Of a DNA stretch of 64,000 nucleotides, positions 6,344-20,096 are shown piece by piece. This stretch comes from Catenulispora acidiphila DSM 44928. GTDB taxonomy: Bacteria; Actinomycetota; Actinomycetes; Streptomycetales; Catenulisporaceae. The position numbers and the translations under genes are program-made. The stretch is taken from contig NC_013131.1 of NCBI RefSeq assembly GCF_000024025.1, positions 620,001-684,000 of the forward strand, read 5' to 3'. Each line of letters begins with the position of its first letter. Position 1 is the stretch's first letter. Under the pieces are notes generated by a model that was not told the origin of the DNA, ran no database searches, and saw nothing but the letters and a program-made list of their open reading frames with translations.

Positions 6344-7466
6344 GTGTTGCTGCGTCTGACCTATCTCGCCGTGACCAACGCCTTCGCCGTTCTGCGGTTG
6401 CTGCCGATGAGCGACCGGGACAAGGATGCGGAGATCTTGGCCCCGCGTCATCAGCTCGCGGTCCTGCAGCGGCAACTCGGTCCGGCCGGTGCCAGGTTTG
6501 CCCCAGGGGACCGGGCCTTCCTCGCGGCGCTGCTGCAACCTCTGTCTCGGGCATCGTCGCGTCGGCTGCATCTGATCGTCAGCCCGGACACGGTGCTGCG
6601 ATGGCACCGTGATCTAATGCGCCAGCGCCATGCGAATACCTGCCGGCCGCAGCGAACCGGGCGCCTGCGTACTGTCGCCTCGATCAGGCGGCTGGTGCTC
6701 CGTCTGGTCCGGGAGAACCCACACTGGGGCTACCGCCGAGTCCACCGCGAACTGGCCACCCTGGGCATCAAGGTCGCCGCCTCGACCGTCTGGGAGATCC
6801 TCAAGGATGAGGGCATCAACCCGGCACCCGAGCGCCGCCAGCACTTGGGCCGCGTTCCTGCGCAGCCAGGCTGACGCGCTGCTGGCGTGCGACTTCATCG
6901 AGACCGTGACACTGACCGGGCAGCGCCAGTACATCCTGGCCGTCATCGAGCACGCCACCCGGCGCATCCGCGTGCTGGGCACCACTGCCCATCCCACCGC
7001 GGCCTGGGTCGCCCAAGCAGCACGGAACCTGGTCATGGACCTTGAAAACGCCGGAGCCGCAGTCAAGTACCTGATCCGCGACCGGGACGCGAAGTTCCCG
7101 CCGCTGTTCGACGAGATCCTCGCCCAGGCCGGGATCCAGGTCGTGCTCAGCGGCATCCGCATGCCGCGGATGAACTCGATAATGGAGCGTTGGGTGCAGA
7201 CCTGCCGCCGCGAACTGCTGGACCGCACCTTGATCTGGAACCAGCGCCATCTACTACACGCCCTGCGCCAGTATGAAACGCACTACAACAGCCACCGCGC
7301 CCACCAAGCGATGCAGCAGGCCGTGCCACTACGCGCAGTGCCCCCACCGATCACCGGCCCACACATCACCGACCCACACATCACCGGCCCACACATCACC
7401 GACCTCGACATCCGCCGACACGGCCGACTCGGCGGAACCATCCACGAGTACCGACACGCCGCCTGA
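6344..7466 (+). pseudogene. Transposase of insertion sequence A, frameshifted
   Basis: The protein starts at GTG 6344 (VLLRLTYLAVTNAF) and has an N-terminal helical region with HQLAVLQRQL. The reading frame changes near 6826–6840: the first half ends ERRQHLGRVPAQPG, and the other frame continues with TWAAFLRSQADALLACDF. The second half holds the rve-type catalytic core (LACDF, LIRDRDAKF, and ERW with the final Glu). Aligned with the equivalent protein in 8016–9106, a single-base indel explains the break. It is unlikely to be active unless the shift is programmed. Confidence 0.75.
7350..7409 (+). repeat. Four 15-bp tandem units in the transposase gene
   Basis: Units ATCACCGGCCCACAC and ATCACCGACCCACAC alternate at 7350, 7365, 7380 and, degenerate, 7395. 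They encode a repeated PHIT(G/D) near the transposase C-terminus. The related IS at 7924–9138 has only one copy of this segment (PPDITDLD). Confidence 0.8.
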
Positions 7467-7923: not shown

Positions 7924-9138
7924 CCTGTCCTTGCCGAGAACCTCGTCCGTGCTGGTCGGGGGAATATCCAGATCATGATGACGGTAATTGTCCGCCGGTG
8001 GGATCGTAAGTTCTCGTGTGCTTACGCTTCGCCTACGTGCTGCCCGTCCGCGTCGTCGCCGCGCTTCGATTGTGGCGGTGCGGCGACGATTACAAGACCA
8101 TCGAGATCCTGCTGCTCCGCCACCAACTCGCGGTTTTGCAACGTCAACTCGCCGCGACAGGAAAGCGTCCGCGGCCTGACTGGGCCGATCGCGCGATCAT
8201 CGCGCTGCTGCTTGGTCTGGTACCCAAAGCGCGCCGCGTTGGACTGCGTCTTTTCGTTACCCCAGACACCATCCTGCGCTGGCACCGCGACCTGCTGCGG
8301 CGACGCCGGGCGAAGAAGTCCCGCCCGAAGAACGGACGTCTGGCCACCCACCGGAATATCAAGACCCTGATTCCGCGCATGGCACGCCAGAATCCGGGAT
8401 GGGGCTACCGTCGGATCCACGGTGAGCTGGCGGGACTCGGCATCGCCGTCGCGGCCTCCACCGTCTGGGAGATCCTCAAGGAAGCCGGCGTCGACCCGGC
8501 ACCGCGACGCGGCTCGGTGACTTGGGCGAGCTTCCTGCGGTCCCAGGCCGAAGGAATTATTGCCGCCGACTCCTTCACAGCCGACCTCCTGGACGGCACA
8601 AAGGTGCACGTCCTGGCCGTCATCGAGCATGCCACCCGCAGGATCCGTATCCTCGGCAGTACGCTCCATCCGACCGGTGAGTGGACCACGCAGAGGCCCG
8701 TAACATGCTCATGGACCTCGACGACGCTGCTACCACGGTGAAGTTCCTGATCCGCGACCGCGGATCCAACTTCACCAAAGCCTTCGACACCGTCCTGGCC
8801 GACGCCGGCATCCCTACCGTGTTGTGCAACGTGCGAACCCCACGCATGAACGCGATCACGGAACGCTGGATCGGATCCGTCCGCCGCGAACTCCTGAACC
8901 GCACCCTGATCTGGAACCACGAACATCTCCGCCAGATCCTGCGCGACTACGAGTTCCACCACAACACCCACCGGCCGCACATGGGCCTGTCCGGAGCCGC
9001 CCCGCTCAAGCCGCTGCCGCCGGACATCACCGATCTCGACGCTTTCCGAGTCCGACGAACCCGCCGCGCGGGCGGCGTCATCAACGAGTATCGAACAGTC
9101 GCTTGACCAGCATGGATGAGCTTTTCGGCAAGGACAGG
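7924..9138 (+). mobile_element. Insertion sequence B (DDE/rve transposase type)
   Basis: A 1,215-bp element with 34-bp inverted repeats that differ at four positions: CCTGTCCTTGCCGAGAA at 7924 and, on the other strand from 9138, CCTGTCCTTGCCGAAAA. No target-site duplication is visible. The right end abuts a truncated integrase gene, so the insertion (or a later deletion) removed the integrase N-terminus. Confidence 0.8.
8016..9106 (+). pseudogene. Transposase of insertion sequence B, frameshifted
   Basis: The coding sequence starts at GTG 8016 (MCLRFAYVLPV) and runs through HQLAVLQRQLAATGKR, ILRWHRDLLRRRR and GWGYRRIHGELAGLG into TWASFLRSQAEGIIAADSF. At about 8690 the frame shifts: the first frame ends in WTTQRPVTC, and the next carries ARNMLMDLDD, LIRDRGSNF and ERWIGSVRREL. 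One lost base in CAG-AGG explains it. All three acidic catalytic positions are present across the two halves. Confidence 0.8.
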
Positions 9139-10057: not shown

Positions 10058-10105
10058 GTGGACATATGCGAGATGACGTACGGTGCGGTCGGGGAGTCCT
10101 CATGA
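10058..10105 (+). CDS. Possible 15-codon leader peptide
   Basis: A GTG at 10058 preceded by GGAGAGCAGC opens a 15-codon frame (VDICEMTYGAVGESS). Its TGA overlaps the ATG of the cysteine desulfurase gene at 10102 (ATGA). It could couple translation of the operon's first gene or be chance. Confidence 0.2.
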   Translation: MDICEMTYGAVGESS

Positions 10106-11304
10106 CCCTACGCACTTCTCCGCCCCATCCCGGGCTGGCCGGCGGGCCGGTCTACCTGGACTACAACGCCACGACCCCCGTTGACCCACGCGTCGCGGAC
10201 GCGATGGTGCCCCACCTCACGTATCTGTTCGGCAATCCGTCCAGCAGCCATGCCTACGGCGCCGGGCCCAGGACGGCGATGCAGCGGGCGCGCGGGCAGG
10301 TTGCAGCCGTGATCGGTGCTCGGTCGGAGGGGGAGATCGTGTTCACTGGGTCGGGTTCGGAGGCTGACCTGCTCGCGCTGCGCGGTGCAGTTCTGGCCGC
10401 GGGGGGCCCGCGCCCGCATGTAATAACTCAGGTTACAGAACACCCGGCGGTTCTGGAGACGTGCAGCGCGCTCGAGCGCCTGCACGGGGCGCAGGTCACG
10501 GTGCTGCCGGTCGACGGGTACGGAATGCTCGAGCCGAGCACACTGGCCGCCGCCCTGGAGCGGCCGACTGCTCTGGTATCGGTCATGGCCGCCAACAACG
10601 AGACTGGCGCGTTGCAACCGATCGCCGAACTGGCCGCGCTCGCCCACGCACGTGGGGCGTTGTTCCACTGCGACGCGGCTCAAGCCGTTGGGAAGATCGC
10701 GCTCGACGTGCGTGCCCTGGGGGTGGATCTCCTCACCATTGTCGGACACAAGATGTATGCGCCTAAGGGTGTCGCCGCGCTGTACGTGAGGGAAGGCGTC
10801 AGGTTGGAACCGGTCGTCTACGGCGGCGGCCAGGAACGTGCACTGCGATCCGGCACCGAGAGCGTTGCCCTGGCCGTGGCTCTCGGTGCCGCGGCCGAGC
10901 TTGTGGTCGAGGACCTCGCGCATAACGAGCCCGCTCGTGTCGCCGCTCTGCGCGATGAGTTGCACCGGCTTCTGACCGCCGGTTGGCCGGGCCGTGTCCG
11001 CCTCAACGGCCCTGACGCGGCCCGCCTGCCGAACACGCTTAATGTCAGCATTGACGGGGTCCGCGGGTACGAAATGCTCGCTTCCGTGCCTGACGTTGCG
11101 GCGTCCACCGGTTCGGCCTGCCACAGCGGCGACCACACCACCCCATCGGCTGTCCTGACTGCCATGGGCTTCGACGAAGACCGTGCGTTGGGGTCCGTCC
11201 GCCTCTCACTGGGGCGCTGGAGTACTCGGCGAGAGGTTGAGAAGGCGGCGCGCGCGCTAATCGGGCATAAGTTGCCAAATAGGGATGAAGCTCCGCCACG
11301 ATAG
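10102..11304 (+). CDS. NifS/IscS-like cysteine desulfurase
   Basis: A 400-residue class-V pyridoxal-phosphate enzyme. It starts at ATG 10102, 5 nt after GGGGAG. Motifs in order: VYLDYNATTPVDPRV, GNPSSSHAYG, FTGSGSEAD, MAANNETGALQPI, HCDAAQAVGKI, VGHKMYAPKGVAALYV (the PLP-binding Lys after His) and ASTGSACHSGDHTTP with the active-site Cys. Length is normal for NifS/IscS. The family removes sulfur from cysteine as a persulfide, and many members also release selenium from selenocysteine. As first gene of an operon with selD, a TusA-like domain and a methylthiotransferase, it most likely supplies sulfur or selenium to that pathway; this is inference. The stop is TAG, 127 bp before the peptide gene. 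Confidence 0.88.
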   Translation: MTLRTSPPHPGLAGGPVYLDYNATTPVDPRVADAMVPHLTYLFGNPSSSHAYGAGPRTAMQRARGQVAAVIGARSEGEIVFTGSGSEADLLALRGAVLAAGGPRPHVITQVTEHPAVLETCSALERLHGAQVTVLPVDGYGMLEPSTLAAALERPTALVSVMAANNETGALQPIAELAALAHARGALFHCDAAQAVGKIALDVRALGVDLLTIVGHKMYAPKGVAALYVREGVRLEPVVYGGGQERALRSGTESVALAVALGAAAELVVEDLAHNEPARVAALRDELHRLLTAGWPGRVRLNGPDAARLPNTLNVSIDGVRGYEMLASVPDVAASTGSACHSGDHTTPSAVLTAMGFDEDRALGSVRLSLGRWSTRREVEKAARALIGHKLPNRDEAPPR

Positions 11305-11431: not shown

Positions 11432-11578
11432 ATGTCGACGATCGAGCAGTTGGCTGAGGCGGCTCGCAAGAGCCAGAAGAACAAGGCGCTGGCCAAGAGC
11501 GAGCCGCGCGACGGTCGCATTCTCGACAGCCCTACTTGATGACCGATCTGCTGTCCGTGTGACAGCCCGTCGGCCTAG
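11432..11578 (+). CDS. Candidate selenocysteine-containing precursor peptide
   Basis: A strong ribosome site (GGAGGGGAGGA) precedes ATG 11432. Read to the first UGA (11537–11539) it gives 35 residues: a helical, Lys-rich N-terminus ([18 protein letters not shown]) and the tail [10 protein letters not shown]. The stop is a tandem UGA-UGA. In the same frame the sequence goes on as [11 protein letters not shown] and ends at UAG 11576, giving 48 residues with two Sec and three Cys if both UGAs are decoded. Three Cys codons in five positions is unusual for this GC-rich DNA. The tail resembles the RimO target loop of ribosomal protein S12. selD and selA lie in the same operon. The short form is certain as a reading frame; its role as a modified peptide and the Sec reading are inference. 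Confidence 0.6.
11543..11573 (+). promoter_or_regulatory. Candidate bacterial SECIS hairpin
   Basis: The lower stem CCGA (11543–11546) pairs with TCGG (11570–11573). The upper stem GCTGTC (11550–11555) pairs with GACAGC (11561–11566), extended by a possible U·G pair at 11549/11569. A small internal loop with unpaired U lies between the stems. The 5-nt apical loop CGUGU has G in its second position. The loop starts 16 nt after the first UGA and 13 nt after the second. Known bacterial SECIS elements sit directly downstream of the Sec UGA, inside the coding region, and have a G near the start of the apical loop. The fit is good but such hairpins are not rare by chance. Confidence 0.45.
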
Positions 11579-11694
11579 GGCCAGAGCAGATGAGAGTCTG
11601 CCGGAGAGCATCTCAGTACTTTGCGCGGTCCCAGCCGCCGTCGTGCTGGGGCCGCGTGGGGTTCGACAGCTTTCAACCAGTTAAACGGGGTATC

Positions 11695-13119
11695 ATGGCG
11701 GCTAGTCGTGGCACGGTATCGCTCGTCACATTGGGCTGCGGACGAAACGAAGTCGATTCCGAGGAGCTCGCGGCTCGTCTCGAGTCGGCAGGGTGGGAAC
11801 TCGCCGATCCTGACTCCGTCCCGGGTGAGTCTGACATCATCGTAGTCAATACCTGCGGCTTCATAGAATCGGCGAAGAAGACGTCGCTGGAGACGCTTGT
11901 CGCAGCGTCCAATGCCGAAGCGAAAGTAGTAGCCGTAGGCTGTGTGGCCGAGCGCTACGGCAAGAGGCTTGCCGAGGCCCTGCCGGAGGTCGACGCTGTA
12001 CTGTCCTTCGACGATTATCCCGACATATCACAGCGCCTCGACGATGTCGTGCGAGGGAAGAAGCACGAGTCCCACACGCCGCGCGACCGCCGGCGTCTGC
12101 TTCCAATTGCGCCCGTGGATCGTGCGAACAACAGCAGCGTGGTGGCACCGGGCCACGGAATAGTCAGGCAGGACTCCGAAGCTGGTTTGGGCGGCTCTAT
12201 CTTCCTGCGGAAGCGACTGGGCGGCGGAGGCCCACTGGGTGACGGAGTGGTTGCACCGCTGAAGCTAGCCTCCGGCTGTGATCGTCGGTGCTCGTTCTGC
12301 GCCATACCTTCGTTCAGAGGTGCCTTCATCTCGCGCACCCCCGATGACATCGTTGCCGAAGCCGAATGGCTCGCTGACGCTGGCGTTCGTGAACTGATTC
12401 TCGTTAGCGAGAACTCCACTTCGTACGGCAAGGACTTCGGCGACCTCCAAGCCTTAGAGAAGCTGTTGCCGAGGCTCACATCCCTGGTGAGTCGCGTTCG
12501 GATCAGCTACCTTCAGCCGGCCGAGCTTCGTCCCACGCTCATTGAAGCCATAGGGGGCATCCCCGGTGTCGCGTCATATTTCGACTTGTCGTTCCAGCAT
12601 GCCAGCGGCCCCGTCTTGCGGAGGATGCGCCGCTTCGGTGATCGTGAGCGTTTCCTAGAACTGCTTGACAAGATCCGCGTTATCGCCCCCGAGGCCGGCA
12701 TGCGATCCAACTTCATCGTCGGCTTTCCAGGGGAGACAGAGGACGACTACGGCGAGGTCGAGAGGTTTGTCTCTGAGGCGAGGCTCGACGCGGTCGGTGT
12801 CTTCGGCTACTCCGACGAGGAGGGCACCGAAGCGTTGGGACTACCCGACAAGGTGGAGCAGTCTCAGATCGCAGATCGGGTCGCCAGGCTGACCGTGATC
12901 TCACGGAAGGCGATGGACGACCGCGCGGCGGAGAGGGTCGGCTCCGAGATCGAGGTCATTGTCAAGCATCCAGGCCGAGGTTGGGCAGCACATCAGGCAC
13001 CGGCTGTCGACGGATTCGTGACGCTGACGGGGAGCTCGTCAGAGGCCGGGGATGTCCTGCGTGCGCGAGTCACCGGACAGGACGGCGCGAACCTCATCGC
13101 CGAAGCACTCGCGAAATAA
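11695..13119 (+). CDS. RimO-like radical-SAM methylthiotransferase
   Basis: A 474-residue protein with full methylthiotransferase architecture. The N-terminal domain has its three cluster Cys ([36 protein letters not shown]). The radical-SAM core has [15 protein letters not shown], then [28 protein letters not shown] and [19 protein letters not shown]. The C-terminal ~65 residues form a TRAM domain. It closely resembles streptomycete RimO, which methylthiolates an Asp of ribosomal protein S12. Here, however, it sits in an accessory operon just after a peptide with an S12-like target loop, so I read it as a paralogue acting on that peptide. ATG 11695 follows ACGGGG; an in-frame ATG at 11590 would add 35 unlikely residues. 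Confidence 0.85.
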
Positions 13120-13146: not shown

Positions 13147-14406
13147 ATGACAGCTCAAGCAATAGTGAGCGATCAACGGCAATCCAACTATCGTCAGGTA
13201 TTCGCGATACGCGAGTTTCGATACGTCTTCACGGCGCACTCGGCATCAATGCTGGGCTCCGTGGTCACCGATGTCTCGCTATCCGTCCTCGTCCTCGAGC
13301 GTACGGGATCCCCGTTTCTGGCTGCGCTGACGTTCGCGTTGGGATTCATGCCCTATGCCTTCGCAGGCACGTTGCTCGCCGGGATAGGAGACAGGTATCC
13401 GGCACGACTGCTCCTTGTGACGTGCAATTGCGTATCCGCGGCGACAGTTGCCGTCATGGCCATGCCATTTACGCCAATTTGGGCACTAATTGTTCTGAGA
13501 TTCGCCGCCTCGACAATACAGCCAATCTTCACGTCGGCGCGAGCAGCGAGTCTTCCTGAGTTTCTAAAAGGGGACCGCTATACACTCGGACGGTCGATCC
13601 TGCGAATAGTGAACCAGAGTACACAGATTATCGGTTATGCAACCGGCGGCCTACTCCTGTTGGTTATTCAGCCTCGCCAGGCGCTATGGATCGACGCCGC
13701 AAGTTTCGCTGTATCGGCTGTCCTGCTCCGTGTGGGGACCGTGGGTCGTCCGGCCCGCATCACCGATCGCAAGGCGCAAGGCACACTGATCCGCGAGTCG
13801 CTGTCCGGCGCGCGGGCCGTGGTGAGGCAACCACGTATCAGGGCACTGTTGTTCCTATGGTGGACGGCCCCGGCGCTTGCCGGTATACCCGAAGGGCTGG
13901 CGGCACCGTACGTGCGGCAGATACACGCGGCATCAGTCAGCGTTGGCCTCCTCATGGCGTCCGCAGCTGTCGGCACTATCGGAGGCGAGGTGGCGATCGG
14001 CACGCTGGTCGGCCCTGCGCGCCGGATGCGGTTGGTGGTTCCTCTGGCCAGCTGTTCGCTTCTTCCTTTGGCGGTGTTTGTCCTCCGGCCGGACGTGATC
14101 GTGGCGATTGCCCTGATGGGGCTGACCGGGGTGGCCGACGCATACATGCTGGGTTTGGATCAGTGGTTCTTGGAAGCGGTGCCTGACGAACTGCGCGCCC
14201 AGGCCTTCAGCATCATGTTCGCAGGGATCATGCTCACACAGGGGCTGACCATTAGCATCGGCGGCTTGGCGGCCGAATTCGCCGCCCCGAGTTTGGTAAT
14301 TGCGATCTCTGCAGCCGTGGGAACGGTCGTGATCGCCCTTGTCTGCAGATCGGTTCTCCGAACTGCTCCTTCTCCCTCAAGCGAGGAGTCGATAAGTGTC
14401 GGTTGA
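13147..14406 (+). CDS. MFS transporter, probable exporter
   Basis: A 419-residue protein with about twelve membrane segments and the layout of MFS drug-efflux proteins. It begins with a ~40-residue cytoplasmic N-terminus before the first helix (VLVLERTGSPFLAALTFALG region). It lies 27 bp after the methylthiotransferase gene, and its end overlaps the start of selD by 11 bp, so it belongs to the same transcript. In an operon with a small peptide and modifying enzymes the simplest role is export of the product or self-resistance. That is inference; nothing in the sequence shows the substrate. Confidence 0.82.
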   Translation: MTAQAIVSDQRQSNYRQVFAIREFRYVFTAHSASMLGSVVTDVSLSVLVLERTGSPFLAALTFALGFMPYAFAGTLLAGIGDRYPARLLLVTCNCVSAATVAVMAMPFTPIWALIVLRFAASTIQPIFTSARAASLPEFLKGDRYTLGRSILRIVNQSTQIIGYATGGLLLLVIQPRQALWIDAASFAVSAVLLRVGTVGRPARITDRKAQGTLIRESLSGARAVVRQPRIRALLFLWWTAPALAGIPEGLAAPYVRQIHAASVSVGLLMASAAVGTIGGEVAIGTLVGPARRMRLVVPLASCSLLPLAVFVLRPDVIVAIALMGLTGVADAYMLGLDQWFLEAVPDELRAQAFSIMFAGIMLTQGLTISIGGLAAEFAAPSLVIAISAAVGTVVIALVCRSVLRTAPSPSSEESISVG

Positions 14407-15424
14407 CGTCGAACAGCCGTCCGGTGAAGTGACCCGGCGGCTGACCCAGTATGCGCACGGTGGCGGCTGTGCCTGCAAGATCCCGCCTGGCGAGCTCGAA
14501 AGCGTGGTGGCGCAACTCGCCGCCGCGGAGCCCGCGAAAAGTCCGTACGAGCTGTTGGTCGGCCTCGAGACCGGTGACGACGCAGCCGTCGTCCGTTTGA
14601 CTGGCGATACCGCGATCATCTCTACCGCGGACTTCTTCACTCCCGTAGTGGACGATGCCTATGACTGGGGTCGGATCGCCGCGACGAACGCCCTATCCGA
14701 CGTCTACGCCATGGGTGGCACGCCGGTTACCGCAGTGAACCTCTTGTCCTGGCCTCGGGACGTACTTCCTCTGGAGTTAGTTGCCGAGGTTCTGCGGGGT
14801 TGTCTTGATGTGACCCGTGCCGCCGGGTGTCACCTAGCAGGCGGCCACAGTGTGGACGACCCCGAGCCCAAGTACGGGATGGCGGTCACTGGTGTCGCCG
14901 ATGCACGACGGCTCCTGCGCAATGACGCAGCCACGCCGGGCCTGCCCCTAACCCTCACCAAGCCGCTGGGCATCGGAGTACTCAATAGCCGTCACAAAGC
15001 GACGGGGGAGGTTTTCCCCCAGGCGGTCGATGCGATGACGACCCTGAATGCCGATGCCGCGACCGCGGCGCTCGCGGCTGGTGCGACGTGCGCGACGGAC
15101 GTCACCGGCTTCGGACTGCTCGGCCATCTCTACAAGTTGGTGCGGGCTAGCGGTGTGACAGCGGTGATCGACCCAGGCGCTGTCCCGTATCTCGAGGGCG
15201 CACGCCGGGCTGCGCTCGACGGATTCGTCAGCGGCGGAACCAGGCGGAATCTCGCCTGGGTTAACGAGCACGTTGCCTGGGGGAGTGGCGTTGATGAGGT
15301 TGAACGGCTGCTACTCGCTGATGCACAGACCTCTGGCGGCCTGCTGATCGTCGGCGAGGTACCAGGGTTCCCCGTCATCGGTGAGCTCGTGCTGGCTGGC
15401 CCGCGATCTCTTGTCATCGGCTGA
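14396..15424 (+). CDS. selD: Selenide, water dikinase (selenophosphate synthetase)
   Basis: A 342-residue protein starting at GTG 14396, 7 nt after GAGGAG. The N-terminus has RLTQYAHGGGCACKIPP, the SelD glycine-rich loop with the catalytic Cys and the following Lys; the enzyme uses Cys, not selenocysteine. Next come LVGLETGDDAAVVRL, ADFFTPVVDDAYDWGRIAA, NALSDVYAMGG, HLAGGHSVDDPEPKYG and CATDVTGFGLLGHL, all SelD hallmarks, and length is normal. It makes selenophosphate from selenide and ATP, the selenium donor for selenocysteine and for selenium-containing metabolites. Overlap with the transporter gene shows it belongs to the operon. Presence of selA downstream favours the selenocysteine route. 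Confidence 0.95.
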   Translation: MSVDVEQPSGEVTRRLTQYAHGGGCACKIPPGELESVVAQLAAAEPAKSPYELLVGLETGDDAAVVRLTGDTAIISTADFFTPVVDDAYDWGRIAATNALSDVYAMGGTPVTAVNLLSWPRDVLPLELVAEVLRGCLDVTRAAGCHLAGGHSVDDPEPKYGMAVTGVADARRLLRNDAATPGLPLTLTKPLGIGVLNSRHKATGEVFPQAVDAMTTLNADAATAALAAGATCATDVTGFGLLGHLYKLVRASGVTAVIDPGAVPYLEGARRAALDGFVSGGTRRNLAWVNEHVAWGSGVDEVERLLLADAQTSGGLLIVGEVPGFPVIGELVLAGPRSLVIG

Positions 15425-15460: not shown

Positions 15461-16594
15461 ATGATGTTCGACAGGGAGCTTCTCGACACGATAGTCAACG
15501 AGGTGGTGGCTCCGGCTGCGGCCGAGGTTGACACGAACGCGGCATTCCCCCGCGAGGGAGTGGATGCGCTGGCCCGGGCCGGGGTGTTGGGCCTCACGGT
15601 GCCGAAGCAGTTCGGAGGCGCGGGTGAAGGCCTACGTTCGGCTGTGAATGTCATTCGGACGCTGTCCTCGGCGTGTGGATCGACCGCCATGGTTGTCGCG
15701 ATGCACTACAGCGGGACAGCGGTCCTCGCATCGCAGGAACGTGCCGATGTGCTTCAGGACATAGGCGATGGCCGGCACCTAACCACGTTGGCGTTCTCCG
15801 AAGTCGGTTCGCGCAGTCACTTCTGGGCACCGCTGAGCACTGCGAAGGCTGACGGGGACGACGTCCTGCTTGATGCTAGGAAGAGCTGGGTGACGTCCGC
15901 CAGCCAAGCCGACAGCTACGTTTGGTCGAGCCGGCCGATGGCGGCCGATGGCCCTATGTCGCTGTGGTTCGTGCCCTCAGACACCCCCGGGCTGTCGATT
16001 CCCCGAGCGTTTGACGGTATGGGATTGCGGGGTAACGACTCGTCACCCGTGACGGCGGACGGGGTCAGGGTGTCCCAGACTTCTCTGCTCGGCGACGATG
16101 GCAAGGGATTCGACTTGGCCATGGCGGCGGCATTGCCAGTCTTCCTCGTGCTTAATGCCGCAGCTGGGATCGGATTGATGGACGCCCTGCTCGCCGAGGC
16201 GGTCAAGCACCTCTCCGCAACTAGGCTCGACCACCTGAACCAGTCGCTCGCCCAGCAATCGCCGGCGCGGCTGACGCTCGCCCGGATGCGGATCGAGGCC
16301 GACCGGACACGGTGTCTGCTCGATGAGACGCTATCCGCGCTCGAACAGGAACGCCCCGACGCACAGCTGTTTCTGTTGGAAGTGAAGGCGGCCACGGACG
16401 AGTCGGCCGCGCTCGTCGCGGACCTCGCGATGAAGGTGTGTGGAGGCGCCGCATTCCGCAAGGAGTTGGGGATCGAGCGGCGCTTCCGCGACTCGCGCGC
16501 TGCACGGGTGATGGCCCCCACAACTGACGTACTCGAGGATTTCGTGGGGCGGGCGCTGTGCGGCCTCCCGCTGTTCGACGGGCCCGCCGCATGA
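15461..16594 (+). CDS. Acyl-CoA-dehydrogenase-like flavoprotein
   Basis: A 377-residue protein of the acyl-CoA dehydrogenase fold. The N-terminal helical domain (LLDTIVNEVVAPAAAEVD, PKQFGGAGEGL) is followed by the middle beta domain (TTLAFSEVGSRSHFW, WVTSASQADSYVW) and the C-terminal helical domain with CGGAAF. The start at 15461 follows the ribosome site GAGAGGGAGAAG. Members of this fold include desaturases and also FMN-dependent monooxygenases of the DszC kind. The catalytic Glu of true acyl-CoA dehydrogenases is not evident, so a peptide- or small-molecule oxidase is as likely. It ends ATGA-coupled to the next gene and shares the operon with selD. Confidence 0.8.
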   Translation: MMFDRELLDTIVNEVVAPAAAEVDTNAAFPREGVDALARAGVLGLTVPKQFGGAGEGLRSAVNVIRTLSSACGSTAMVVAMHYSGTAVLASQERADVLQDIGDGRHLTTLAFSEVGSRSHFWAPLSTAKADGDDVLLDARKSWVTSASQADSYVWSSRPMAADGPMSLWFVPSDTPGLSIPRAFDGMGLRGNDSSPVTADGVRVSQTSLLGDDGKGFDLAMAAALPVFLVLNAAAGIGLMDALLAEAVKHLSATRLDHLNQSLAQQSPARLTLARMRIEADRTRCLLDETLSALEQERPDAQLFLLEVKAATDESAALVADLAMKVCGGAAFRKELGIERRFRDSRAARVMAPTTDVLEDFVGRALCGLPLFDGPAA

Positions 16595-17448
16595 GCAACC
16601 GGGTCCTGCTCGGCGCGGTCGCCTACGATTCGAAGGTCGTCACGATCTGGGACGGTTTCCGTCAGTGGTTCCGGGACCGCGACTTGGACTTCGATTACGT
16701 CCTGTACTCCCACTACGAGCGTCAGATTGAGGACCTGGTTGAGGGCCACATCGATGTGGCGTGGCATTCGCCGTTGGCGTGGGTCCGGACGGTGCGTCTC
16801 GCGCGGGCACGGTCAGTCGGTGTGCGGGCCGTGGTGATGCGAGACAGTGATCGGGATCTGGTATCGGCGGTCTTGGTCCGAGCCGACTCCGATCTCGCGT
16901 CGCTCGACGATTTGCGCGGTCGGAGTGTGGCGACGGGAGCGATCGACTCTCCTCAAGCCCATCTGCTGCCGTTGTCGATGCTCCGGGAGGCCGGGCTTCG
17001 CCCGGATGTCGACTTCAAGGTCTCGCGTTTCGACGTGCGGGTCGGGTTGCACGGCGACCACGTCGGCGGCGAGCGCGACGCGGCGGTGGCGCTGCGGTCC
17101 GGCCTGGTCGACGCCGCATGCATGTTGGATGCCAACACGTTGCTGTTCTCTCGGGAGGGAACGCTGCCAGCGGGGTCGGTCAGGGTATTGGCGAAAACTG
17201 AGCCCTTCGACCATTGCACCATGGCGGTCGGTCCGGGTGCCGACAAGTCGACGGTCGACCGATTCACGGCGCTCTTACTTGGCATGGCGTACGACGATCC
17301 GACCGTTCGGCCACTGTTCGACCTCGAGGGTCTCAAACAATGGTTGCCCGCGCGGACGGATCGGTACAGCGCCTTGGAACGCGCGGTGGACGAGTTGGGT
17401 TTCCTCGACGCTGAGGGGAAGCTGTGTGCTGACGATTATCGACCTTGA
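16591..17448 (+). CDS. PhnD-like solute-binding-fold protein without signal peptide
   Basis: A 285-residue protein whose start overlaps the previous stop (ATGA). It resembles phosphonate/phosphite periplasmic binding proteins: LLGAVAYDSKVVTIWDGF, the DVAWHSPLAWV segment, LDDLRGRSVATGAIDSPQA, DVRVGLHGDHVGGERDAAVAL and VDAACMLDAN. Unlike exported PhnD proteins it starts directly with the fold: no signal peptide, no lipobox Cys and no ABC transporter genes nearby. The same fold is used by cytoplasmic enzymes such as MqnA/MqnD. I infer an intracellular binding or enzymatic role in the operon's pathway; the ligand is unknown. Confidence 0.75.
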   Translation: MSNRVLLGAVAYDSKVVTIWDGFRQWFRDRDLDFDYVLYSHYERQIEDLVEGHIDVAWHSPLAWVRTVRLARARSVGVRAVVMRDSDRDLVSAVLVRADSDLASLDDLRGRSVATGAIDSPQAHLLPLSMLREAGLRPDVDFKVSRFDVRVGLHGDHVGGERDAAVALRSGLVDAACMLDANTLLFSREGTLPAGSVRVLAKTEPFDHCTMAVGPGADKSTVDRFTALLLGMAYDDPTVRPLFDLEGLKQWLPARTDRYSALERAVDELGFLDAEGKLCADDYRP

Positions 17449-18598
17449 GGGGCTGGGGCTCGACGCCGGAGCCCATCTCGTTCTCAACCGGGCCCTGACC
17501 GGCCTGCCAGCCGGCGGGCGCCTGGCCGTTGTCGGCGGAAACCAGATGCTCGGGGTGCAACTCGGAGCCTGGTGCAGGTCGGAGGGCCACGGGTTCGACC
17601 CCGCAGACCCGCCCGTGGTCATTAAGGGCACGGCGGACGACGCCCGAGCCCGCGCCACTCAGCGGGCGGGATCCCCATCGCATGTCGACGAGCGGGCTGA
17701 TGCCGCGTGGGGGCTTGCGGCTCGAGGGGCTCTCGTCGAGCCCGGCGGCCCGCTTTTGTCTGTGGACTGGGTCGACCGTGATTTGGTTTGGGCCGACGTG
17801 GCGCCGAGGCTGTATTCGCGTGCCGCCGCCGAACAGTGGGATCCGGCGACTGCTATCGACTGGGCCTCGCACGCCGATGTGCCCGACGAGGTCGAGGACG
17901 CGGTGGTCCAGATAATGACCTACCTGATCGAGAACGAACAGGCGGCACTCATGCTCCCGGCGCGCCTGCTGGCACGCCTGCATCCGCACTTCCGCGAAGT
18001 CATGCAGTTGTTCGCCGTGCAGATAGCCGACGAGGCGAGGCACGTCGAGGTCTTCACCCGCCGTGCCTTGCTGAGCCGAGACGAACTCGGCGTGTCCGGG
18101 GCGGGTGGACGCGCGTCCCTCCAGACCCTGCTCGACGAGCCTGACTTCACACTGGCCTCGTTCCTGCTGTCGGTGCTCGGGGAGGGCAGTTTTCTCGATC
18201 TGCTGCGGTTCCTCAATGTGCACGCGCCCGATCCGATCACTGCGACGATGACCAGCTTGGTCGGTCGCGACGAGGCCCGGCACGTGGCATTCGGTGTTGC
18301 CCATACTGCACATGCGGCGAAGGCCGACGCGCGTTTCCTCGGACGCCTCCGCATGGCGGTGGAGCGCCGCCATACAGCTCTGATTGACACGGCGGGCCTC
18401 AACAAACAGGTGTTTGACGCCCTCGTCGTCCTGGCCGCCGGATCGTGGGAGACCTCTGCGATCGCGAAGGGCTGGCGCGCGGTCGAAGAGCTGCAGAAGC
18501 GGATGGAAGACGGTCGTCGTCACCGGCTGAGCTTGATCGGCTTTCCCGACGACGAAGCGGCAGAACTCGCTGCTCTGCACACCCGTAACTTCATGTGA
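17426..18598 (+). CDS. TusA-like domain fused to ferritin-like di-iron domain
   Basis: A 390-residue protein starting at GTG 17426, 5 nt after GAGGGGAA and overlapping the previous gene by 23 bp. Residues ~1–60 (LTIIDLEGLGLDAGAHL, LNRALTGLPAGGRLAVVG, LGAWCRSEGHGFDP) follow the TusA/YedF sulfur-carrier fold, but the CP motif with the catalytic Cys is replaced by LD. From ~residue 150 on, a di-iron helical domain has ENEQAALMLP, ADEARHVEVFTRR, LGEGSFLDLL and GRDEARHVAFGVAH. The ligand spacing is like that of the di-iron protein at 305–1366. YedF-type TusA paralogues are known from selenium-using bacteria. Role inferred: an oxidase working with a sulfur/selenium carrier step. Confidence 0.7.
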   Translation: MLTIIDLEGLGLDAGAHLVLNRALTGLPAGGRLAVVGGNQMLGVQLGAWCRSEGHGFDPADPPVVIKGTADDARARATQRAGSPSHVDERADAAWGLAARGALVEPGGPLLSVDWVDRDLVWADVAPRLYSRAAAEQWDPATAIDWASHADVPDEVEDAVVQIMTYLIENEQAALMLPARLLARLHPHFREVMQLFAVQIADEARHVEVFTRRALLSRDELGVSGAGGRASLQTLLDEPDFTLASFLLSVLGEGSFLDLLRFLNVHAPDPITATMTSLVGRDEARHVAFGVAHTAHAAKADARFLGRLRMAVERRHTALIDTAGLNKQVFDALVVLAAGSWETSAIAKGWRAVEELQKRMEDGRRHRLSLIGFPDDEAAELAALHTRNFM

Positions 18599-18630: not shown

Positions 18631-18912
18631 ATGTCCGACGTGCGCCGCGACATACCTCGGACTGACGTCGTCCTGGCGGACCCGCGCCTCGCCGCAGCCC
18701 GAGCCCGACTCGGTGTGGATGCCGTCAAGGCAGCCGTCCGCGGAGCCCAGCAGAAAGCTCGCGACGGCGAAATCGCCGCAGAGGCAGTCGTGGAGGTTGC
18801 CGTAGCCTCCTTGCCTAGTTCCGCGACCACCTTGAGACCCATCCTCAATGCCACTGGCGTGGTGCTCCACACGAATCTCGGGCGGGCGCCTCTCGCCCCT
18901 GCCGCTGTCGAG
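18631..18912 (+). pseudogene. selA: selA, N-terminal 94 codons only
   Basis: It starts at ATG 18631 after GGGAGAGAAGGC, 32 bp behind the previous gene. It encodes the SelA N-terminal domain and the conserved junction RPILNATGVVLHTNLGRAPL, ending APAAVE where insertion sequence C begins. Normal SelA (L-seryl-tRNA(Sec) selenium transferase) has about 430 residues; the PLP-Lys domain is absent, and the DNA after the IS is integrase, not selA. The enzyme converts Ser-tRNA(Sec) to Sec-tRNA(Sec) with selenophosphate. This copy cannot work, but it shows that the operon once carried selenocysteine machinery. Confidence 0.9.

Positions 18913-20096
<1,184 letters not shown>

Follow-up and report, generated by a model that had tools for sequence, protein, structure and literature searches.

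Selenocysteine (Sec) is already known in RiPPs. The selenobacteriocin, or thio(seleno)oxazole, systems (TIGR04081, SbtM) are reported to combine a small precursor with a UGA-encoded Sec, a SECIS element directly downstream and a radical SAM enzyme (PMC11002830, PMC13188914). The locus described here appears to share this organization, with the differences that its adjoining radical SAM gene is of the RimO type and not a SPASM protein of the SbtM type, and that the precursor is proposed to end in Sec. At E<=0.1, no NCBIfam or Pfam family, TIGR04081 included, is matched by this precursor or its homologue. No RimO-type RiPP with a C-terminal Sec was found in a literature search that covered titles and the beginnings of abstracts, with most subscription journals outside its coverage. 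A Sec near the C-terminus is present in mammalian thioredoxin reductase, a protein unrelated to the peptide discussed here.

The window, that is, the whole stretch of DNA analyzed, comprises 64,000 nucleotides of the soil actinomycete Catenulispora acidiphila DSM 44928 (positions 620001–684000 of its genome, one contig of 10467782 bases). It contains a short gene, preceded by the ribosome site GTGGAGGGGAGGAACT upstream of its ATG, that ends in two consecutive UGA codons (UGA1 and UGA2), beyond which the frame stays open until a TAG at 11576–11578. The coordinates given for this 35-codon gene in an earlier note were confirmed (Table 1), and selD and the start of a selA gene probably lie in the same operon, as judged from strand and overlaps. 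The earlier note took both UGA codons for Sec, giving a peptide with a UUPICCPC core. We propose instead that UGA1 encodes Sec and UGA2 is the stop, so that the precursor would have 36 residues and end in Sec, a reading to which we assign a probability of about 0.72. The proposal is based on a homologue with Cys at the corresponding position, the Sec genes of the genome, a hairpin similar to the SECIS elements of actinobacterial Sec formate dehydrogenase (FDH) genes, and the sel genes of the operon.

Table 1. Positions of the features discussed, in window coordinates.
Feature	Position	Strand	Remarks
NifS-like cysteine desulfurase, proposed Se donor	10105..11304, start approximate	+	below NifS equivalog cut-offs; 68% to NifS-like gene by the Sec-FDH of L145
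Precursor peptide gene	11432..11542	+	ATG 11432, 35 sense codons, then UGA-UGA; homologue L099:393-506
GRILD motif (Gly28-Asp32)	11513..11527	+	likeness to S12 loop GGRVKD
First UGA (UGA1), proposed Sec36	11537..11539	+	faces TGC (Cys37) in G004; 16 nt before loop
Second UGA (UGA2), proposed real stop	11540..11542	+	faces TGA stop in G004
SECIS-like hairpin	11543..11573	+	upper stem GCUGUC 11550-11555, loop CGUGU 11556-11560, stem GACAGC 11561-11566
Open frame past UGA2, proposed untranslated	11543..11578	+	mostly hairpin sequence in frame; without counterpart in L099
RimO paralogue	11695..13119	+	UPF0004 + radical SAM + TRAM; CxxxCxxC C195/C199/C202; N-terminal Cys C15, C54, C83
MFS exporter	13147..14406	+	62% identical partner in L099
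SelD, selenide water dikinase, second genome copy	14396..15424	+	TIGR00476 392.5 bits, cut-off 125; 76% to other SelD
Acyl-CoA dehydrogenase-like flavoprotein (ACAD)	15461..16594	+	nearest NCBIfam Rv1679/FadE16, below cut-off
Periplasmic-binding-protein-like (SBP)	16591..17448	+	Rv1680 as nearest NCBIfam and, with less similarity, putative selenate-binding TIGR04553, each below cut-off
Ferritin-like/AurF-like (FER)	17432..18598, start approximate	+	two DEARH motifs by eye; AurF 17.5 bits, below cut-off 29.6
Start of second selA, cut off beside insertion sequence	18631..18957	+	broken copy
Transposase (integrase core) adjoining broken selA	18979..20052	+	PF13683 42.2 bits

A homologue of the peptide was found in one other genome of the genus (G004, 90% complete), in which the peptide gene, the RimO paralogue and the MFS exporter lie on a contig stretch of 3577 bases (L099). 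The two peptides are 49% identical, the RimO paralogues 74% and the exporters 62%. In both genomes, the same trio thus shows the arrangement expected of a RiPP locus, in which a modifying enzyme and an exporter are encoded next to the precursor. The G004 peptide ends in GRVLDYGGVT followed by a Cys codon (TGC) and a TGA, and in the alignment the Cys faces UGA1 while the stop faces UGA2; in this single homologue, then, the in-frame UGA1 is matched by Cys. With UGA2 taken as the stop, the distance from the stop to the start of the RimO gene is 152 nt in the window versus 155 nt in G004. After the G004 stop, no hairpin with a 6-bp stem and a 5-nt loop is present at the offsets tested, as would be expected since a Cys codon is used there.

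These observations bear directly on the reading in which both UGA codons specify Sec and the peptide runs through the Cys-rich tail. The frame is open to the UAG and one hairpin follows both codons, as that reading needs, but the G004 peptide has Cys and then stops, with no Cys-rich tail after the stop in L099. Moreover, the Cys codons of the tail belong to the hairpin itself: PICCPC (TGC TGT CCG TGT GAC AGC) is the hairpin read in frame, and no protein-level reason for it is needed. The loop is also just 13 nt away from UGA2, less than the 16–37 nt of a published SECIS model, though some elements are reported to deviate from that model (PMC13188914). On these three grounds the double-Sec peptide with its UUPICCPC core was rejected, and Sec at both codons is given a very small probability; of the original claim, the part concerning UGA1 stands. 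The earlier note had named homologues with an end at UGA1 or an unrelated sequence after it, loss of the hairpin, or a genome lacking selB and tRNA-Sec as findings that would speak against it. The tail and the hairpin are indeed absent from G004, whereas UGA1 faces Cys there, and selB and tRNA-Sec are present in C. acidiphila.

The hairpin folds as the earlier note had described it (−14.7 kcal/mol), with the loop CGUGU starting 16 nt past UGA1. None of 200 shuffled sequences was as stable (z −4.28, for bounds that were chosen on the hairpin), and the longer stretch 11530–11600 has an unremarkable fold (z −1.35, 23 of 200 shuffles being as stable). Under a permissive SECIS-like rule, 575 of 1755 TGAs (33%) in 84 kb of the C. 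acidiphila genome qualify; a hairpin after a UGA therefore means little by itself, and the general rule was discarded as evidence. The published model specifies a loop of 3–9 nt, a stem of 4–16 bp, a G in the first two loop bases, a spacing of 16–37 nt and an MFE <= −7.5 (PMC13188914). UGA1 fits it with a loop of 5 nt, an upper stem of 6 bp, G as the second loop base, a spacing at the lower limit (16 nt) and the MFE given above, while UGA2 fails by its spacing.

A more specific comparison was made with actinobacterial Sec-FDH genes. In four of these (L145, L211, L214 and L215), 12 nt separate the UGA from a stem of 6 bp or more (with G-U pairs in some of the genes), and the 5 nt at its top read GGUCU or AGUUU. 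In the window, UGA1 is followed by 10 nt rather than 12, then by GCUGUC, CGUGU and GACAGC, and the loop shared with the FDH genes is NGUNU. The narrow geometry taken from these genes (6-bp stem, 5-nt loop NGUNU, start 9–13 nt after the UGA) is found once among the 1757 TGAs in 84 kb of the own genome, at UGA1, and at 2 of 33304 TGAs in 80 other actinobacterial loci with Watson-Crick pairs, or 10 of 33304 if G-U pairs are allowed; the NGUNU rule was written after the window loop was known, its fixed letters being the three that never vary among the FDH loops. There is variation among the FDH hairpins themselves: that of L145 is not the best fold of its 55 nt (z −0.52 in 34 nt), and the outer loop bases of L214 pair to give an 8-bp stem with a 3-nt loop. 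Among the candidates for this comparison, L205 proved to be the same place as L211, and L199 was a spurious regex match that was dropped. A fifth gene, a Nonomuraea formate dehydrogenase, was left out, and has Cys (TGC, L216:7998–8000) where the four related actinobacterial genes have UGA.

The tandem itself was compared with ordinary gene ends. In 80 actinobacterial loci, TGA is the stop in 783 of 1042 well-coded ORFs, and the next codon is again TGA in 7 of these 783, a rarity to be read with the fact that the present site was picked for its tandem. A C-terminal Cys occurs in none of the 1042, which are long ORFs and not peptide precursors. Because TGA-TGA is rare at ordinary stops, a sense UGA1 followed by a stop at UGA2 is the easier reading, and the possibility that UGA1 is an ordinary stop is slightly lowered. 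In that case the peptide would end in SPT, the hairpin would be incidental or regulatory, and the sel genes would serve something else. The abundance of loose SECIS-like hairpins and the broken state of the operon selA are in keeping with it, and readthrough at UGA1 is a proposal made from the sequence; against it stand the Cys-then-stop of the homologue, the rare hairpin geometry and the presence of Sec genes in a genome in which no Sec-FDH was found. We consider it unlikely, while leaving it an appreciable share of the probability.

The genome of C. acidiphila contains SelA, SelB, SelD and tRNA-Sec, the set expected of a bacterium that makes selenoproteins. A selD-selA-selB locus with tRNA-Sec lies at 6.56 Mb (G000:C1:6562939-6567335, L136). 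Its SelA scores 415 bits, and the tRNA-Sec scores 72 bits and is classified as SeC by ARAGORN. The SelB-wing_3 domain of SelB is kept, and over the last 130 aligned columns the protein is 51% identical to the SelB of Arthrobacter and 55% to that of Tsukamurella. Formate dehydrogenase was rejected as the host gene of the system, there being no TIGR01553 or TIGR01591 match in the own genome that has an internal stop or exceeds the cut-off. Of 10 genomes in the genus, 8 have tRNA-Sec-like matches that pass the Infernal cut-off, and ARAGORN finds a tRNA-Sec in C. acidiphila only; the 12 Infernal matches listed from the nine other genomes are 11 tRNA-Ser and one tRNA-Gly according to ARAGORN, with no SeC. 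SelA is over the cut-off in none of these nine genomes, three of which are 77, 81 and 90% complete; the last is G004, in which neither SelA over the cut-off nor tRNA-Sec was found. In another genome of the survey (G543), two SelA genes over the cut-off lie on different contigs (L210, L213). In the proposed mechanism, SelB bound to the hairpin would deliver Sec-tRNA to UGA1, the ribosome would stop at UGA2, and selenium would be supplied by NifS, SelD and the native SelA.

RimO is the methylthiotransferase of ribosomal protein S12, and the S12 loop that it modifies contains GGRVKD. The paralogue beside the peptide gene resembles RimO in its full set of UPF0004, radical SAM and TRAM domains and in its cysteines, and passes the TIGR01125 cut-off narrowly (361.9 versus 356.95 bits). 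It differs from RimO in being an extra copy located by a peptide gene, with the peptide as its proposed substrate. Both peptides contain GR(I/V)LD, similar to GGRVKDLPGV of the S12 loop. In the E. coli ribosome structure 4ybb, S12 reads GGRVKXLPGV, with an X in place of the aligned Asp, and we take this X to be methylthio-Asp. Counted over 434375 residues, the pattern GR[VI].D has 29 occurrences, or about 0.002 per peptide of such length. Owing to this resemblance, we suggest that the RimO paralogue recognizes the peptide by its S12-like GRILD and adds a methylthio group to Asp32, a proposal whose chances are evenly balanced. The MFS protein would export the product after trimming.

Two other roles of the enzyme have to be weighed. 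It may still modify S12 and have nothing to do with the peptide, an arrangement compatible with Sec at UGA1 and with the RimO family cut-off being passed, if narrowly; another RimO is kept in the genome, at 9.105 Mb, however, and the pairing of peptide and paralogue in both genomes, like the resemblance of GR(I/V)LD to the S12 loop, argues against it, so that we regard it as rather unlikely. Alternatively, the selenium genes might feed the RimO paralogue to yield methylseleno-Asp, with UGA1 as either Sec or stop, since the operon of the paralogue also contains SelD and NifS. G004 has the same RimO without SelA over the cut-off or tRNA-Sec; the enzyme thus seems independent of the Sec genes, and this reading is improbable.

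Taken as a whole, the locus may reflect a duplicated RimO that was recruited for a peptide natural product by a precursor mimicking the S12 loop, with the C-terminal Cys changed to Sec in C. acidiphila and the genome retaining its Sec machinery mainly for one small exported molecule carrying methylthio-Asp and Sec. We offer this combined scenario tentatively and consider it less likely than not. A peptide of the proposed kind would add a second type to the Sec-containing RiPPs known from selenobacteriocin, one that ends in Sec and is tailored by a methylthiotransferase. It would also provide a clear Cys/Sec change in the precursor of a secondary metabolite, and a case of a housekeeping ribosome-modifying enzyme recruited through substrate mimicry.

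Searches for further relatives suggest that the RimO-associated peptides form a new family with two known members, of which the window member is the one proposed to carry a C-terminal Sec. Among 293 genomes of the order, the peptide has a match at E<=10 in 111, and at E<0.1 solely in C. acidiphila and G004. A regex for R[VIL].D, 1–8 residues and T[CU]-stop, applied to 196 loci, returned just the two known peptides. The RimO profile has matches at E<=1e-188 in three of 391 genomes of the order (C. acidiphila, G004 and G015). In 394 genomes of the class it has matches at E<=1e-165 in 209, one each, a count for which four candidates were scored per genome, so that a more distant second copy could escape, and whose sample does not contain G004. 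The other seven operon proteins gave no tblastn match at E<=1e-8 in the best 80 loci of the contig scan (4.0–21.5 kb) and none at E<=1e-5 in 29 further loci (L168-L196, 3.2–4.4 kb). In a plasmid collection, the peptide and the AurF-like protein had no match, and the RimO paralogue matched 101 records with a best identity of 60%.

The genes from NifS to selA are on one strand with several overlaps (NifS, peptide, RimO, MFS, SelD, ACAD, SBP, FER and the broken selA), and on this basis probably form one operon. Its GC content is 64.6%, compared with about 71% in the flanks, and together with transposase or integrase-core genes on both sides this makes the operon look acquired. Further integrase-core or transposase-like genes are located at 6630-7466, 8016-8741 and 8681-9106. 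Given the broken selA copy and an island full of IS elements, the operon may be decaying.

The operon shares with the actinobacterial Sec-FDH loci a similar SECIS and, in one of them, neighboring genes: in G026 (L145), ACAD-SBP-FER-NifS directly precede a Sec-FDH that is followed by SelA, the only such case among the stretches compared. It differs from them in having no FDH, and in the peptide-RimO-MFS trio that sits between NifS and SelD. Strong homologues of FER occur in four other genomes of the 394 searched (59–67% identity), and no relative of known structure was found at E<=0.01. All four of these genomes have SelA over the cut-off, which is absent from a fifth genome with a weak homologue, a comparison that covers these five genomes. 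From these gene neighborhoods, ACAD, SBP, FER and NifS probably belong to selenium supply, and the first three are possibly an undescribed unit for the acquisition of selenium or sulfur. As a separate observation, the ACAD-SBP-FER trio (window 15461-18598; L144, L145, L146 and L147) stays together as a conserved unit, and SelA accompanies it in the small number of genomes compared.
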